52,867 nt of DNA. It comes from an uncultured beta proteobacterium (GTDB taxonomy: Bacteria; Pseudomonadota; Gammaproteobacteria; Burkholderiales; Rhodocyclaceae). The notes under the pieces were generated by a model. The model did not search any database. It saw nothing but the letters and a program-made list of their open reading frames with translations, and had not been told where the DNA came from. Positions 35,603 through 41,360 of this stretch are shown here, in pieces (the stretch's first letter is position 1; each line of letters starts with the position of its first letter). Where the stretch lies: NCBI GenBank assembly GCA_903908065.1, contig CAIVQO010000012.1, positions 1-52,867 on the forward strand. Reading direction: 5' to 3'. The translations under genes and the position numbers were made by a program.

Positions 35603-35631
35603 TTGATATTAAATATTTCCCGGGATAAAAT
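35603..35631 (+). promoter_or_regulatory. Sigma70-type promoter of the methionine-rich peptide gene
   Basis: TTGATA (35603-35608) and TAAAAT (35626-35631) are separated by exactly 17 bases, close to consensus. Transcription would begin near 35638 and leave a leader of about 117 nt before the ATG at 35755. Both boxes lie in an AT-rich patch unlike the surrounding high-GC DNA. Confidence 0.65.
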
Positions 35632-35672
35632 CGAATGAGTAATCAGGCATGGCATTGACTGGTTGCGAAAGC

Positions 35673-35698
35673 GGTTGAACTCCGGTTTCGGAGCAACC
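35673..35698 (+). promoter_or_regulatory. Hairpin in the leader of the methionine-rich peptide gene
   Basis: GGTTG-AA-CTCCG-GTTT-CGGAG-CAACC can fold into a stem with a two-base bulge and a four-base loop. The preceding GGTTGC at 35661-35666 can pair instead with GCAACC at 35693-35698, so two alternative folds exist. It lies in the leader and might stabilise the message or regulate it. No known riboswitch was recognised. Confidence 0.4.
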
Positions 35699-35754
35699 GA
35701 GAGTCCGATCCGACGGGGTTGGATATTTTTTTCTCTTCGAAGAGGTTTGCCTAC

Positions 35755-36069
35755 ATGAAAATCAAGACCATCGTTGTTGCTTCCATCGTTTCCATGGCTG
35801 TCGCCGGTGCCGCTGTTGCTGCCGAGCAAAAGGGTATGGGTGGCATGTCCGGCATGGACGCCAAGAAAGAGCAGAAGGGCATGAGCGGCATGGCTGGAAT
35901 GGACGCCAAGAAGGACCAGAAGGGCATGGAAGGCATGTCCGGCATGGACGCCAAGAAGGGCGACAAGAAGCCCGCCGAGAAGAAGGAAGCCAAGAAGGAC
36001 GACCAGAAGGGCATGGCTGGCATGGGCGGCATGTCCGGCATGGACGCCAAGAAAGACGCCAAGAAGTAA
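35755..36069 (+). CDS. Exported methionine-rich repeat peptide (MrpX-like)
   Basis: This 104-residue protein has a signal peptide of about 23 residues (MKIKTIVVASIVSMAVAG..AVAA). The 81-residue mature part contains 13 Met and many Gly, Lys and Asp, with no Cys, His or aromatic residues. It is made of four copies of a unit like KGM-x-GM-x-GMDAKK (one copy has an extra GGM), with a KKPAEKKEAKK spacer between the third and fourth. The start is ATG 35755. The composition resembles MrpX of Azospira, a periplasmic hypochlorite scavenger whose oxidised Met are restored by a molybdoenzyme. Metal (Cu(I)) binding is another option. It heads a cluster containing a DMSO-reductase-type enzyme. Confidence 0.8.
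   Translation: MKIKTIVVASIVSMAVAGAAVAAEQKGMGGMSGMDAKKEQKGMSGMAGMDAKKDQKGMEGMSGMDAKKGDKKPAEKKEAKKDDQKGMAGMGGMSGMDAKKDAKK
35827..36066 (+). repeat. Coding tandem repeat in the methionine-rich peptide
   Basis: Near-identical units of about 45-54 bp encode KGM-x-GM-x-GMDAKK. The copies differ mainly at one variable residue and at wobble positions, which suggests expansion by slippage or unequal crossing-over followed by drift under selection for the motif. Confidence 0.75.
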
Positions 36070-36102
36070 TTTGGCTCTGCCTCTGGCAGTTGCAGTCGGA
36101 AG

Positions 36103-36136
36103 CGCGGAGCCGGGGCAACCCCGCTCCGCGTTTTTT
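36103..36136 (+). terminator. Intrinsic terminator between peptide gene and enzyme genes
   Basis: CGCGGAGC (36103-36110) pairs with GCTCCGCG (36123-36130), the loop region CGGGGCAACCCC can extend the stem, and TTTTTT follows at once. It is a textbook Rho-independent terminator. It ends only 12 bases before the next ATG at 36149, so read-through must carry the downstream operon unless it has its own promoter. Confidence 0.85.
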
Positions 36137-36148
36137 ATTGAGGTTTCG

Positions 36149-36481
36149 ATGAAGCGTCCTATCTCTGGATTTTTGGCAGCGTGGAGTTTGTCGTCGTGGG
36201 TGGTGCTCCAATGTAGCGCCGCAACGAGCGGGAATGCCTTGCCTTATGTTGCCGGTTTGACTCCCTATCAGCGCCCTGCCTACGCTCCTGTCATCCGCGA
36301 GTCCAAGCAAACACCGGAGTGGCGCCAAAACGCATTGCGCGGCGTCAGCGAGCCGGTTCCCGCCAGCCTGAAATTCCTGAATGACCAGGGGGCCTGGTAC
36401 ACCCCCTTCGACCGTGCCGGCATGCCCGGCTACTACGACTTGCGCCAGATGCACACGATTCCGGCCAAGGCCAAGCCCTGA
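36149..36481 (+). CDS. Secreted hypothetical protein, first gene after the terminator
   Basis: This 110-residue protein has an N-terminal hydrophobic segment after MKRPIS (GFLAAWSLSSWVVLQCSAA), probably a signal peptide or lipoprotein-like leader. The mature part is rich in Pro and Tyr (YVAGLTPYQRPAYAPVIRE, WYTPFDRAGMPGYYDLRQMHTIP) and has no Cys. I recognise no domain. GAGG at 36140-36143 serves as ribosome site. Its stop is seven bases from the cytochrome ATG, so it belongs to the enzyme operon and may be a periplasmic subunit or factor. Confidence 0.7.
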   Translation: MKRPISGFLAAWSLSSWVVLQCSAATSGNALPYVAGLTPYQRPAYAPVIRESKQTPEWRQNALRGVSEPVPASLKFLNDQGAWYTPFDRAGMPGYYDLRQMHTIPAKAKP

Positions 36482-36488
36482 GAACCTA

Positions 36489-37337
36489 ATGAACGCTTTG
36501 AAGTGGATCGCCGTTATCCTGGTTTTGGCCATTTCCGGCTATGGGCTGAAGGCCGGCGCCGACGCCCGCCAGGCTGCCGAACGCGAACGGATCGCCGATA
36601 CCGCCGGCAAGCTATTGCGCGCCACCTACAGTCCATTGCATTTCAAGCCCGCCATCGAGACGGCGACGGATGCACAGTGCCTGGCCTGTCACAAGGAGGT
36701 GCTGGACGACAAACCACGGGTGGCTGCACCGGCCGGCCTGCGGGCGGCCGACAACCTGGCCTGGTATCAGCAGACCAGCACCTACCAGGGCGAACAGGAC
36801 AGTTTCCATCGTCGCCACCTGGTGACACCGATGGCGAAAGCGCTGATGAACCTTGCCTGCACCACCTGTCACCAGGGGCAGGACGTGCGCGAAGAAGCAC
36901 AGGGTTCGTCGGCCACATCGGCACCGCAAACCGATGCAGGCTTCACCCTGCGCAAGCAGGTCAATCCGGAGACCACCTGCCTCAAGTGCCACGGCCAGTT
37001 CCCGGCCAAGGAGATCATGGGCCTGCCGGCGCCCTGGAAGGACGCCAAAGACATGTTCCAGAACGACTGCTTGGGCTGCCATGCGGCGATTCGCACGGCG
37101 CGCCACCAGGTCAGTTACCTGAATTCCGAGGCGATCGAGACGGCGGCCCGCGAGGCCACGGGGAAGAAGCAAGGCGGCGACGTCTGTTACGGGTGCCACG
37201 GCGGCCGCGCCTGGTATCGGATTGCCTATCCCTATGCGCGCAATCCATGGCCCGGCATGCCCGAGGTCACGCCGGAGTGGGCTCGCCTGCGTCCACGTCA
37301 TTCCGAAATGCGTTTCCTGACCCAAGCCGGACGCTGA
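36489..37337 (+). CDS. Pentaheme c-type cytochrome
   Basis: This 282-residue protein has an N-terminal hydrophobic helix (LKWIAVILVLAISGYGLKAG), probably a membrane anchor or uncleaved signal. Five CXXCH heme sites follow, at Cys64 (CLACH), Cys124 (CTTCH), Cys164 (CLKCH), Cys194 (CLGCH) and Cys233 (CYGCH). I see no clear NapC/NrfH signature, although the anchored multiheme layout is similar. In this operon it probably carries electrons between the quinone pool (or another donor) and the molybdoenzyme, taking the place of a DmsC-type membrane subunit. Direct quinol oxidation is unproven. Confidence 0.9.
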   Translation: MNALKWIAVILVLAISGYGLKAGADARQAAERERIADTAGKLLRATYSPLHFKPAIETATDAQCLACHKEVLDDKPRVAAPAGLRAADNLAWYQQTSTYQGEQDSFHRRHLVTPMAKALMNLACTTCHQGQDVREEAQGSSATSAPQTDAGFTLRKQVNPETTCLKCHGQFPAKEIMGLPAPWKDAKDMFQNDCLGCHAAIRTARHQVSYLNSEAIETAAREATGKKQGGDVCYGCHGGRAWYRIAYPYARNPWPGMPEVTPEWARLRPRHSEMRFLTQAGR

Positions 37338-37338
37338 C

Positions 37339-39915
37339 ATGAAAACGATTCCCGCCGCGATCCACGCGATCCTCAATCCTTCCCGTCGCAGCTTCCTCAA
37401 GACCACGGCAGCCGGCGCGGCGCTGGCCGGTGCCGGTGGCCTGCTGGAAATCGCCACCCAGGACAAGCACGCCGACGCCTTCGCCTACGAGCCCTACCTG
37501 ACGGACGACCAACTCACCACGGTGGTCACCAGTTGCGACCACAACTGCGGTTCGCGCCACATGCTGGTGGCGCACAAGAAGGGCGACGTCATCGTGCGCC
37601 TGTCGACCGATGACGGCCGCTACCAGGAGCGCGGCGAGTTCGGCAAGGACACGGTGGCCGAGCCACAGTTGCGTGCCTGCCTGCGCGGCCGTTCCTACCG
37701 CTCGCGCCTGTATTCGCCGGAGCGATTGCTCTACCCGATGATGCGCGTCGGCGAGCGCGGCGAAGGAAAGTTCAAGCGCGTCTCCTGGGACCAGGCGCTC
37801 GACCACATTGCGAAGAAGATGATCGAGCTGAAGGCCAAGTACGGCCCGACGGCGCTGCTCGATCAGGGCTACGCCGGTACATCCTACGGCGTGCTGCACA
37901 AGTCGGACCAGATCGAGGGGCTGCTGTCGCGCTTTCTCGGCGTCTTCGGTTGTCGCACGAATTCGTGGTCGGTGCCCAGCTACCAGGGCACCACTTTCAG
38001 TTCGCGCATGACCTTCGGCAACATCGAGGACGGCAACGAGGACGACGCCTTCGCCCACAGCAAGCTGATCATCATGTGGGGCTGGAACCCGGCCTACACC
38101 TTCCATGGCGGCAACACCTTCTACTACATGCGCATGGCCAAGCAGAAGGGCTGCAAGTTCGTCGTCGTCGATCCGCAATACACGGATTCGGCGGCGGCCT
38201 ACGATGCCTGGTGGATTCCGATCCGGCCCAATACCGATGCCGCGATGCTGGCCGGCATGGCGCATTACATCTTCGCCAATAAGCTGCAAGACCAGAAGTT
38301 CATCGACAAGTTCGTGCAGGGCATGGATGCCGGCACCATGCCGGACTGGGCCAAGGGGCAGGAAAGCTTCAAGGACTACATCCTCGGCACCAACGACAAG
38401 ACACCGAAAACACCAGAGTGGGCCGAGCAGATCTGCGGTGTGCCGGCGGCCGACATCAAGAAGCTGGCCGACATGTATGCGCGCACCAAGCCGGCGGCAT
38501 TGAAAGCGTCCTGGGCACCGGGGCGAAACGCCTACGGCGAACAGTACAACCGCATGGCGGCGGCGGTGCAGGCGATGACCGGCAACATCGGCATCCTCGG
38601 CGGCTGTGCCGAGGGCGTGGGCAAGGGCTGGCACGCCGAATCGGTGGCCTATCCTTACGACGAATACGCCAACGTCTGGTATGCCTCGATCAAGTCGGAC
38701 CGCTGGGCGCACTGTGTGCTCAACTATCCCAACCTCAAGCGCGAAGAAATCGGCTGCTGGCCGCGCGACGACGAGCTCGACGGCAAGATCCCCAATATCA
38801 AGGGCATCTTCTGGCACGGCTCGGACTGGTTCAACCAGCTCACCAACATCAACAAGGAAATCGAGGCGATCAAGAAGCTGGAACTGGTGGTCTGCTCCGA
38901 TTCGACCATCACGCCTTCCGGCCTGTGGGCCGACGTGCTATTGCCGATCGCCACCCACTTCGAGCGCCACGACGTGGCGCTGCCCTGGTACAAGGGCCAC
39001 TACTACATCCATCGGCCCAAAGTGATTGAGCCGATGGGCGAGAGCAAGACCGACCTTCAGGTCTATACCGAGCTGTGCTATCGCCTGGAGGCCCTCGATC
39101 CGGCGCTCAAGGGTCTGGGCAAACGCTACAACCCGAAGGCCGAGCGCAATTATTTCGACAACCCGGACGCGGTGGATGAAGCCTACCTGGCCGACTGGTG
39201 GAAGAAAGTGCAGGACCACCAAGGCGTAAAAATGAGCTGGGACGAGTTCAAGCGACGCGGTGTGTACAAGTTCACCTTTGACCAGCCGCACGTCGCGTTC
39301 CGCGACCAGGTCCAGAACGGCGAGCCCTTCGAGACGCCTTCCGGGAAGATCGAGATTTTCTCCACTACGCTGGCCAGGATCACCGACTGGACCAAGACCC
39401 AGTACGGCTATCCGATACCGGCGATTCCGAAGTGGATCGAGCCCTTCGAGTGGCTGGGCGATACCGCCAAGGCCAAGCAGCACCCTTTCCACCTGATCAC
39501 GCCGCATCCGCGCTGGCGCACGCACTCGATCTTCCACAACATTCCGTGGTTGCGCGAGACCTACCAGCAGGAAGTCACGCTTAATGCAGCAGATGCCAAA
39601 CGCCTCGGCATCGTGACCGGCGACATCGTCGAGGTCTGGAACGATCGCGGCAAGGTGGTGGTGCCGGCCTATGTCACCGAACGCTGCATGCCCGGCGTGG
39701 CGGTGCTGTACGAAGGATCGTGGATGGACCTGGACAAGCAGGGGGTCGATCGCTCCGGCAATCCCGATTTCCTGACCAAGGACGAGCCAAGTCCGGCCGG
39801 CGCCTTCGCCTACAACACGATCCTCGCCAGCATTCGCAAGAGCACGCTGGAGCATCGCCCGGGCTGGGACAGTCAGGCGACGGCGCGCTCCTATATCTTC
39901 CGCCGGGATTCCTGA
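37339..39915 (+). CDS. DMSO-reductase-family molybdoenzyme, catalytic subunit (DmsA-like)
   Basis: This 858-residue protein has a twin-arginine signal (SRRSFLKTTAAGAALAG) and so is exported folded with its cofactor. The closest layout I know is E. coli DmsA. Shared stretches include LRACLRGRSYRSRLYSPERLLYPM, VSWDQALDHIAKKM, DPQYTDSAAAYDAWWIPIRP, TPEWAEQICGVPA and TPSGKIEIFS. Ser214 (VPSYQG) aligns with the Ser that ligates Mo in DMSO reductases. The N-terminal Fe-S motif is Cys66, Cys70, His74, Cys114, so the third Cys is His. Substrates of the family include DMSO, TMAO and methionine sulfoxide. Confidence 0.88.
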   Translation: MKTIPAAIHAILNPSRRSFLKTTAAGAALAGAGGLLEIATQDKHADAFAYEPYLTDDQLTTVVTSCDHNCGSRHMLVAHKKGDVIVRLSTDDGRYQERGEFGKDTVAEPQLRACLRGRSYRSRLYSPERLLYPMMRVGERGEGKFKRVSWDQALDHIAKKMIELKAKYGPTALLDQGYAGTSYGVLHKSDQIEGLLSRFLGVFGCRTNSWSVPSYQGTTFSSRMTFGNIEDGNEDDAFAHSKLIIMWGWNPAYTFHGGNTFYYMRMAKQKGCKFVVVDPQYTDSAAAYDAWWIPIRPNTDAAMLAGMAHYIFANKLQDQKFIDKFVQGMDAGTMPDWAKGQESFKDYILGTNDKTPKTPEWAEQICGVPAADIKKLADMYARTKPAALKASWAPGRNAYGEQYNRMAAAVQAMTGNIGILGGCAEGVGKGWHAESVAYPYDEYANVWYASIKSDRWAHCVLNYPNLKREEIGCWPRDDELDGKIPNIKGIFWHGSDWFNQLTNINKEIEAIKKLELVVCSDSTITPSGLWADVLLPIATHFERHDVALPWYKGHYYIHRPKVIEPMGESKTDLQVYTELCYRLEALDPALKGLGKRYNPKAERNYFDNPDAVDEAYLADWWKKVQDHQGVKMSWDEFKRRGVYKFTFDQPHVAFRDQVQNGEPFETPSGKIEIFSTTLARITDWTKTQYGYPIPAIPKWIEPFEWLGDTAKAKQHPFHLITPHPRWRTHSIFHNIPWLRETYQQEVTLNAADAKRLGIVTGDIVEVWNDRGKVVVPAYVTERCMPGVAVLYEGSWMDLDKQGVDRSGNPDFLTKDEPSPAGAFAYNTILASIRKSTLEHRPGWDSQATARSYIFRRDS

Positions 39916-39917
39916 TC

Positions 39918-40580
39918 ATGAGCAAGAAACTCGACATGAAGCAGGTCAGGGGGGCCCTGGAACGCAAGGTGGCGCAGACCTACGAACCGGTGAAACCGGC
40001 AAAGCAGCTCGGCTTCATCCACCACAACGTCGATTGCATCGGCTGCCGTGCCTGCGAGATCGCCTGCAAGGACAAGAACGGTTTGCCGCCGGGGCCTCGC
40101 TTCCGGCGCGTGATGTACGTCGAGGGCGGTCACTATCCGGACGTTTTCGCCTACAAGGTCAACATGTCCTGCAACCATTGCGCGGAGCCTGCCTGCCTGC
40201 CGACCTGCCCGACCGGCGCCATCTGGAAGCGCGAAGCGGATGGCATCGTCGATATCGATTCGACCCTGTGCATCGGCTGCCGCCGCTGCGAAGCTGCCTG
40301 TCCTTATGGGGCGCCGCAGTGGAACCCGAAGGAGCAGATCGTCCAGAAATGCAATATGTGCGTCGACGAGATCGATGCCGGGCGCAAGCCCTACTGCGTG
40401 ATGGCCTGCATGATGCGGGTGCTCGACATCGGTCCGATCGAGGCGCTCTGGAACGCCAGCCACAAGACGACGGCGATCGGCCCCAATGACAAGCCCGTGC
40501 GCCAGGTGAAAAACATGGCCAACCCCGAGTTGACCAAGCCCTCGATTGCCTTCGTGCCGCACAGCAAGGGTAAGGTGTGA
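39918..40580 (+). CDS. Four-cluster ferredoxin subunit (DmsB-like)
   Basis: This 220-residue protein carries four [4Fe-4S] cysteine clusters: CIGCRACEIAC, CNHCAEPACLPTC, CIGCRRCEAAC and CNMCVDE...YCVMAC. That is the DmsB/TtrB pattern. It has no signal peptide, so it would be carried out by the TAT signal of the catalytic subunit. The ATG at 39918 lies two bases after the previous stop. It would pass electrons from the pentaheme cytochrome to the Mo centre. Its GTGA overlap couples it to the chaperone gene. Confidence 0.92.
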   Translation: MSKKLDMKQVRGALERKVAQTYEPVKPAKQLGFIHHNVDCIGCRACEIACKDKNGLPPGPRFRRVMYVEGGHYPDVFAYKVNMSCNHCAEPACLPTCPTGAIWKREADGIVDIDSTLCIGCRRCEAACPYGAPQWNPKEQIVQKCNMCVDEIDAGRKPYCVMACMMRVLDIGPIEALWNASHKTTAIGPNDKPVRQVKNMANPELTKPSIAFVPHSKGKV

Positions 40581-41326
40581 GCACGCTGTCGCCGGAAGTC
40601 GGCAGGGCCCTGGCCGCGGACTTCGCCAGCCTCGCCGTGCTGCACGATGCAGAATTGAATGCGGCCTTGATCGCCGAGCTGCGTCAGGTCGGATTTCCCG
40701 AAAGCATGGCCATGCTCCCGTGCGACGACCGGGCGGGCGACTGCAGGTCGGCCATGGCCAGCGCGCTTGCCATGCTGCCGGCGGCGCCCGATACGGCCTG
40801 CCTCGACGAACTTGCCGCCGACTATGCCGCAATTTATCTTACGGCCGCCTACGGCGCCTCGCCCAGCGAGTCCTTTTGGCTTTCGGACGATCATCTGGTA
40901 TGCCAGGAGGCAATGTTCGAGTTGCGCAAACTGTATCGGACGCACGGACTGGCAGCGCCGAACTGGCGCCGTCGGCCCGATGATCACCTGGTTTACCAAC
41001 TCCAGTTCCTGGCGCGATGCCTGGAATTGCTGGCCGGCGACGATGACTGGCGCGCCGTGGCCGGGTTTCTCGATTTCCATCTGTTGCGCTGGCTGCCGGA
41101 TTTTTCGCGACGGGTAGCCGAGCGTTGTGATACGGCGTTTTACGCGGCCCTGATGCTGCTGACCGACGCCTGGTGTCGGCAGTTGCGCGAGTTGATTGCC
41201 ACGCATCTCGATGAGGTGCCGCCGACGCCAGAGGAGATTGCCGCCACGCTGGCATCCCGGCGCGTGGTGCAGGCCGAGCCGGTGCCCCTGCAGTTCTTTC
41301 CGGGCGGGGCAGGACCAAGCTGGTAG
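40577..41326 (+). CDS. TorD/DmsD-family molybdoenzyme chaperone
   Basis: This 249-residue all-helical protein resembles the TorD/DmsD chaperones. The recognisable parts are DELAADYAAIYLTAAYGASPSESFWL near residue 75-100 and the later DDHLVYQLQFLARCLEL, with FLDFHLLRWLPDFSRRV matching the family's conserved helix. These bind the TAT leader of their partner until cofactor insertion is complete. The start is GTG 40577, overlapping the ferredoxin stop. It is the last gene of the operon, 10 bp ahead of a terminator. Confidence 0.87.
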   Translation: MSTLSPEVGRALAADFASLAVLHDAELNAALIAELRQVGFPESMAMLPCDDRAGDCRSAMASALAMLPAAPDTACLDELAADYAAIYLTAAYGASPSESFWLSDDHLVCQEAMFELRKLYRTHGLAAPNWRRRPDDHLVYQLQFLARCLELLAGDDDWRAVAGFLDFHLLRWLPDFSRRVAERCDTAFYAALMLLTDAWCRQLRELIATHLDEVPPTPEEIAATLASRRVVQAEPVPLQFFPGGAGPSW

Positions 41327-41335
41327 TGCGCCGCT

Positions 41336-41360
41336 GCAAGCCTTTAGGCTTGCTTCTTTC
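41336..41360 (+). terminator. Terminator after the molybdoenzyme operon
   Basis: GCAAGCC, loop TTTA, GGCTTGC form a perfect seven-base stem, followed by a T-rich TTCTTTC tract. It lies directly after the chaperone gene and before tRNA-His, so it closes the operon. Confidence 0.7.

Follow-up and report, generated by a model that had tools for sequence, protein, structure and literature searches.

The closest described relatives of the system reported here pair a short methionine-rich protein with a molybdenum enzyme. As far as the accessible part of PMC4623255 goes, MrpX and YedYZ scavenge hypochlorite under the control of SigF/NrsF, and the accessible part of PMC8315932 provides BcrXQP of Brucella as a further methionine-rich precedent. 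For the dimethyl sulfoxide (DMSO) reductase family, the question of what such enzymes truly reduce is raised in the portion of PMC8340005 that could be consulted. The window analysed here, i.e. the whole stretch of 52,867 nucleotides, corresponds to contig C12 in the genome of an uncultured Rhodocyclaceae bacterium; this genome has 3.84 Mb in 103 contigs and is 99.6% complete. At positions 35603-41326 it carries the gene of a Met-rich exported peptide beside the genes of a DmsA-like molybdenum enzyme. The two are linked in most of the related loci, and we regard it as probable that they form a periplasmic antioxidant cycle, in which the Met-rich array protein is oxidized and the molybdenum complex reduces the methionine sulfoxide (MetSO) of the array with respiratory electrons.

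The sequence-only reading of this DNA connected peptide and enzyme on the grounds of gene order and composition; this link is now supported by comparative genomics. The best 80 of 296 relatives of the window DmsA-like protein were taken from a collection of species genomes, and a locus was considered to have an array when at least three non-overlapping GM.GM motifs were present within one open reading frame (ORF). The peptide had been expected to be missing beside most orthologs if the link was false, but an array ORF was found upstream, on the same strand and within approx. 2.2 kb, in 60 of the 80 loci. Three loci were set aside because their contigs end too early (L020, L045, L086). The closest DmsA-like ortholog in the named collection (93%) belongs to a metagenome-assembled genome of Sulfuritalea. 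The peptide gene is the first one in e.g. Sulfuritalea, Dechloromonas and Accumulibacter, while a small exported protein comes first in e.g. Zoogloea, Thiodiazotropha, Sedimenticola and Thermopetrobacter. Since the gene order varies among the groups and the linkage is nevertheless kept, the linkage has survived a rearrangement. On the enzyme tree, which was of a quick kind, one clade of betaproteobacteria with 37 rows (support 99) has the array in 19 of 35 loci, window included, and 42 of the 43 testable loci outside this clade have it; the distribution of presence and absence requires at least eight changes. An old linkage followed by several later losses would be the simplest reading. Two of the loci, labelled Desulfobulbus (L060) and Clostridia (L069), come from metagenome bins and their labels may be wrong.

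The co-occurrence was also followed in two genome samples, which overlap with each other and with the 80 loci and thus are not independent. Among 397 evenly drawn Pseudomonadota genomes, five contained the enzyme (E<=1e-200) and the array was located beside the operon in all five. A strict array pattern matched ten genomes of this sample, four of them with the enzyme; in the remaining six no free-standing array was found, the matches being, by eye, four multicopper-oxidase-like inserts, one CopB-like protein and one chance frame. Since the strict pattern has no match in the window's own genome and so misses the window array, weaker arrays elsewhere could be overlooked. A similar pattern was applied to the own family (199 genomes) and occurred in 23 of the 28 enzyme genomes and in 9 of the 171 others (Fisher 3e-18). 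The match was beside the operon in 16 of these 23 genomes, and in one (G058) it was not placed. In G184 the array was found by ORF inspection (L114) although the pattern misses it. Seven of the nine enzyme-less pattern genomes were inspected (G027, G037, G087, G100, G102, G131, G146; G052 and G069 were outside this set), and an exported array was found in G102 only, where it stands beside an enzyme copy cut by the contig end. The match in G131 is a partly masked, near-pure 9-bp DNA repeat with no visible signal peptide, and those in G027, G037, G087, G100 and G146 are chance frames or lie in an efflux-adaptor-like protein.

GMxGM-type segments were seen by eye in other proteins of enzyme-bearing genomes as well. 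Small lipoproteins or signal-bearing proteins with Ala/Pro/Lys stretches and GMSGM-like tails occur away from the operon in enzyme-bearing family genomes (L158, L160-L165, L169, L170, L175). At least two genomes without the array, G029 (the species of L014) and G121 (the contig of L032), encode such a lipoprotein elsewhere (L158 and L163, respectively), and as a speculation these proteins might substitute for the array. GMxGM segments, C-terminal where the tail is visible, were further noted in the binding-protein-like L155, L159 and L179 and in L180 and L181, which resemble cytochrome oxidase subunits. Other ordinary exported or membrane proteins of enzyme genomes with such segments are L178 and L183 (transporter-like) and L156 (efflux-adaptor-like).

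In the window all named genes of the module are on the + strand inside 35603-41326, and the features are the following:

35603..35631, + strand: candidate sigma-70-like promoter, TTGATA-17-TAAAAT (10 of 12 matches), ahead of the peptide gene
35645..35660, + strand: degenerate sigma-54 promoter match (AGGCATGGCATTGACT, p 0.26), at about the same distance as in same-order relatives with better matches
35755..36069, + strand: Met-rich exported peptide with a signal peptide (by eye), four GMxGMxGM clusters and Lys-rich spacers
36103..36136, + strand: strong predicted intrinsic terminator directly 3' of the peptide gene, also found in same-order relatives
36149..36481, + strand: small exported protein of 110 amino acids (aa) and of no known family, with relatives in the orthologous loci
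36489..37337, + strand: pentaheme c-type cytochrome with five CxxCH motifs and, by eye, a hydrophobic segment at the N-terminus that is either a signal or an anchor
37339..39915, + strand: DmsA-like molybdenum catalytic subunit, exported by twin-arginine translocation (TAT) according to PF10518 (E 3e-5), with PF00384/PF01568
39918..40580, + strand: DmsB-like iron-sulfur (Fe-S) subunit, by profile matches
40577..41326, + strand: TorD/DmsD-type assembly chaperone (PF02613), sharing a 4-base overlap with the DmsB-like gene
41336..41353, + strand: terminator-like hairpin closing the operon

The sequence-only reading had all the named genes right, including their common strand, but the 110-aa exported protein between the peptide and the cytochrome had been overlooked. 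Likewise, the peptide gene is indeed followed by the operon as had been said, but the strong terminator at 36103-36136 separates it from the downstream genes.

The window peptide consists of 104 aa and contains 15 Met, 13 of them in four clusters after the signal peptide (by eye); its gene is built on a 45-bp unit in three copies (score 191). The DNA pattern for G-M-x-G-M-x-G-M gave nine matches in the own genome, five of which fall within the peptide gene, and the reversed control gave none. Composition was calculated for 58 of the 61 arrays, three with masked residues being dropped; signal peptides were assigned by eye, and several of the arrays are incomplete because the contig stops within them. 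The longest array ORF of the relatives has 398 aa. An array protein has 34 Met in the median; when counting starts at the first GM motif, 17-33% of the residues (median 26%) are Met. Met is at the X position in 2256 of 2590 Gly-X-Y triplets (87%) and the Y position is variable (Ser, Gly, Lys, Glu, Gln and others). The Ser codons are mixed (TCN 992, AGY 411), thus the silent sites have diverged while Met was retained: the arrays are under selection for Met. In the relatives the Gly-X-Y runs reach 53 triplets without interruption. The array in the window is short, its longest run is four triplets, and its register is broken with the GMxGMxGM clusters retained. Since the window copy is short and derived, the relatives are the better guide to the system. 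The MXKDX repeat model, which we take NCBIfam to include, was absent among the matches of the window peptide at E<=1; the repeat of this peptide is GMxGM.

The molybdopterin domains together with the 4Fe-4S beta subunit place the complex in the DMSO reductase superfamily, where the named families closest to the enzyme are DMSO/selenate, BisC and TorA. The DmsA-like protein scored under the family cut-offs for DmsA/YnfE (TIGR02166, 602.8 of 777.7 bits), for BisC-type S-oxide reductases (TIGR00509, 404 of 1018 bits) and for the type II family (237 bits, cut-off 985). The same was found for the DmsB-like protein (TIGR02951, 192.5 of 214.1 bits) and for the cytochrome with the NapC/NirT profile (PF03264, 20.9 of 24.1 bits). 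In 37 aligned sequences C66, C70, H74, C114, Y178 and S214 are invariant. His74 takes the place of the third Cys in the Fe-S motif of E. coli DmsA, YnfE and YnfF, Y178 aligns with the Tyr of BisC/TorZ and with Tyr114 of DorA, and S214 is the Ser at the Mo-ligand position. The enzyme is a distinct clade of the DMSO reductase family with a Cys-Cys-His-Cys motif. In the accessible part of PMC5122715 the aligned S-oxide reductases carry both Tyr114 and Trp116, and TorA is without Tyr114. The AlphaFold model of the DmsA-like subunit was poor, with a mean predicted local distance difference test score (pLDDT) of 58.5. No DmsC-like ORF is present between the DmsB-like and the TorD-like genes.

MsrP had no match in the own genome. 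The idea that the enzyme replaces MsrP was considered and rejected, MsrP being over the cut-off in 15 of the 28 enzyme genomes and in 100 of the 171 other genomes of the family. The own genome harbours a second copy of the enzyme with 67% identity (G000:C60:133200-135683; L117, L171), in which the A and B subunits are fused in a frame of 1090 codons. It is preceded by a related multiheme cytochrome, and no GM.GM-rich ORF was present within the 19.9 kb inspected.

The small exported protein has 11 invariant residues in 47 aligned sequences, with a motif of approximately QGxWYTPFxxPGMxGPYDxRGWH. None of the 47 members had a Pfam match, and no convincing relative was found in the PDB (best E 0.31). 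The predicted model is mostly extended (pLDDT 74, predicted template modelling score 0.42), and on this model the protein perhaps wraps a partner.

The region 36070-36145, downstream of the peptide gene, has a folding energy of -38 kcal/mol (z -3.6). Terminators were scanned in 45 loci, each compared with 60 simulated sequences. When the peptide gene is the first one, a hairpin with a T run follows it in 19 of 20 loci at p<=0.05, window included; the sole exception, L072, was probably misassigned to this group via an over-long ORF. When the small exported protein comes first, such a terminator was found in 13 of 25 loci. A terminator after the array gene predicts more peptide than enzyme transcript, and such a predicted excess would be as expected for a consumable rather than for a subunit. 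The 5' leader ahead of the peptide contains a hairpin with a trailing T run (35703-35724), a possible attenuator, which is not evident when seven relatives are aligned; no Rfam family came close to its gathering score in the leader.

Promoters were scanned in 44 of the 61 loci, window included, those with less than 200 bases upstream being dropped. A site of the sigma-54 type, by match to the consensus, is located upstream of the first gene in 33 of these 44 loci at p<=0.05, where approx. 2 were expected. The sigma-70-like candidate of the window is weak, as the region gives three such sites and 1.7 are expected. A sensor kinase with a CxxCH-bearing N-terminal domain of periplasmic type is encoded in 36 of the 80 loci, 26 of which also encode an NtrC-type activator. 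The sensor domain is weakly similar to chemoreceptor sensors (PF21563, 21.8 of 27 bits; PDB 3b42, E 0.087), which presumably bind c-heme, and the kinase itself is presumed from its sequence to be a c-heme sensor. Of the loci that have the array, 35 of 60 encode this kinase, as against 1 of 17 of those that lack it. When only the 45 loci whose flanks extend over more than 5000 bases ahead of the DmsA-like ORF and more than 4800 bases behind it are counted, the respective values are 25 of 32 and 0 of 13. In the own genome the kinase search found no CxxCH-type sensor; the five relatives at E<=1e-20 all match in the kinase region at the C-terminus (within residues 369-614 of 622). Together with the degenerate sigma-54 site (p 0.26), the module in the window's genome looks rewired, with no intact sensor.

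Several other genes were noticed near the operon of the relatives. A poly-ferredoxin-like protein of 358 aa is encoded directly downstream in L063 (8603-9676), and its family is found near the operon in 28 of the 80 loci. Two further families near the operon, a cytochrome c (L079:5435-5824, 15 loci) and a thioredoxin-NHL protein (L080:11981-13579, 13 loci), come for the most part from symbionts that oxidise sulfur and from their kin.

In the cycle that we propose the exported (Gly-Met-Xaa) protein, cheap and abundant, would absorb oxidising equivalents as MetSO. Electrons would flow, in the direction that we infer, from the quinone pool or cytochromes to the pentaheme cytochrome, then to the DmsB-like Fe-S subunit and to the Mo site of the DmsA-like subunit. 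The molybdenum complex would reduce the sulfoxides of the array, its putative substrate, and thus recharge the array in place. In array-first loci the terminator would yield many copies of the array per enzyme, and in many relatives the CxxCH-bearing sensor kinase and the sigma-54 activator would probably switch the module on. DorA of Rhodobacter sphaeroides is a precedent for the chemistry: it reduces protein-bound MetSO, with a kcat/KM of about 45,000-90,000 per M per s for beta-casein, as given in the accessible part of PMC7402097. Two invariant residues, the Tyr common to DorA, BisC and TorZ and the Ser in the position of the Mo ligand, were counted in favour of S-oxide chemistry, and the absence of an MsrP match in the own genome in favour of the cycle. 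A wider form of the idea is tentative and rather doubtful. Here (Gly-Met-Xaa)n would be a rechargeable redox capacitor with a dedicated protein-MetSO reductase, the cell would respire on the sulfoxide with the c-heme sensor in command, and in the relatives the array would perhaps be a collagen-like fibre with Met pointing outward.

A number of observations weigh against the cycle. In 17 of the 80 loci with adequate flank, 16 of them in one clade, the operon has no array ORF, thus the enzyme is retained without it, and in six enzyme genomes of the family (G012, G029, G073, G101, G121, G168) the pattern is found only elsewhere. The Trp116 of DorA-type S-oxide reductases is replaced by Gly, and MsrP is neither enriched nor depleted in the enzyme genomes. 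GMSGM-like segments are also present in copper proteins of enzyme-less genomes. The tie between kinase and array may be due to shared ancestry, since it amounts to only 4-6 independent pairs without significance. According to the accessible part of PMC7402097 DorA is S-stereospecific, so half of the sulfoxides might require another enzyme. In the available text of PMC5122715, H. influenzae MtsZ, which reduces MetSO and belongs to the wider family, failed to repair oxidised calmodulin, and in that of PMC8340005 H. influenzae without DmsA had lost only 12% of its MetSO activity. The retention of the enzyme without the array would suit an ordinary respiratory reductase of S- or N-oxides or other small molecules, with a Met-rich protein that merely protects the periplasm or the enzyme and is not the substrate. 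The nearest named families would suit it as well, and so would the pentaheme cytochrome and TorD-type chaperone, as in TorCAD. We nevertheless consider it unlikely, because the array is present in nearly all testable loci outside one clade, its linkage is kept despite the differing gene orders, and no enzyme-free standalone array was seen in the phylum sample by the strict pattern, which misses the window array.

A periplasmic Cu(I)/Ag(I)-binding role of the Met-rich protein is improbable: the MxxM spacing and, by eye, the similar tripeptide runs in multicopper oxidases (L221, L223, L224, L226) and in the CopB-like L217 speak for it, but Cys, His and aromatic residues are all missing from 22 of the 58 arrays, the array is partnered with a molybdenum enzyme, and by eye no copper gene is present among the neighbour families (ORFs of at least 100 aa in at least 7 of the 80 loci). 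Even less probable is the reduction of an oxyanion such as chlorate or iodate, with the array scavenging a reactive by-product as MrpX does in perchlorate reducers. The enzyme shares its superfamily with perchlorate and chlorate reductases and MrpX is a precedent in the accessible part of PMC4623255; against this stand the Ser at the Mo-ligand position and the low type II score. A link to (per)chlorate respiration was rejected, the chlorite dismutase family being present in just 2 of the 28 enzyme genomes of the own family. A role of the array as a structural or surface protein of the collagen-like Gly-X-Y kind, incidentally co-regulated, seems very remote to us. The long continuous runs would fit such a protein, and collagen-like adhesin models of NCBIfam match three of three arrays with E down to 5e-17, far under the cut-off. 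The window peptide itself scored 15.4 bits with the collagen profile PF01391, under the cut-off of 27.2. However, Met fills most of the X positions, and the window array loses the Gly register and keeps the Met clusters.

No description of a (GMx)n protein-enzyme pair was found in the literature searched, which left out most subscription papers. TorCAD, TorYZ and MtsYZ also have a pentaheme cytochrome beside a molybdenum reductase, and TorCAD a TorD-type chaperone, whereas here the cytochrome is under the NapC/NirT cut-off and there are an additional Fe-S subunit and the Met-rich protein. DmsABC and YnfEFGH of E. coli and H. influenzae share the A and B subunits, the TAT export and the DmsD/TorD-type chaperone with the module; in contrast to them, the module has no DmsC-like gene, the third residue of the N-terminal motif is His instead of Cys, and the proteins are under the family cut-offs. 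DorA is a single-subunit enzyme without Fe-S clusters, whereas the module described here has an Fe-S subunit; the Ser and Tyr114 positions are common to both, and the Trp116 of DorA is absent here. The accessible part of PMC7402097 mentions no Met-rich partner of DorA.

If the proposed cycle is true, sacrificial use of methionine in the periplasm would have evolved independently a second time, and the cycle would give a function to a clade which family models place near the DMSO/selenate reductases. It would also offer a concrete candidate for the natural substrate of a DMSO-reductase-family enzyme, and the natural (GMx)n arrays are extreme methionine polymers. The MrpX/MsrP-MsrQ (YedYZ) system of Azospira with SigF-NrsF and BcrXQP of Brucella with BcrS resemble the module in having a short exported Met-rich repeat protein by a periplasmic molybdenum enzyme that is supplied with respiratory electrons, and in a sink that is oxidised and then re-reduced, as would be the case here. 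The module is not a member of the MrpX/MsrP type, because both the peptide type and the enzyme family are different, and so are the nearby regulators. The repeat is (GMx)n instead of MXKDX, the enzyme belongs to the DMSO reductase superfamily (PF00384/PF01568) instead of the MsrP family, and in many relatives a CxxCH kinase and a sigma-54 activator near the operon stand in the place of an extracytoplasmic function (ECF) sigma factor. The module here further adds a cytochrome, an Fe-S subunit, a chaperone and a small exported protein. By this analogy, the mechanism most likely resembles that of MrpX/MsrP, built from unrelated parts.
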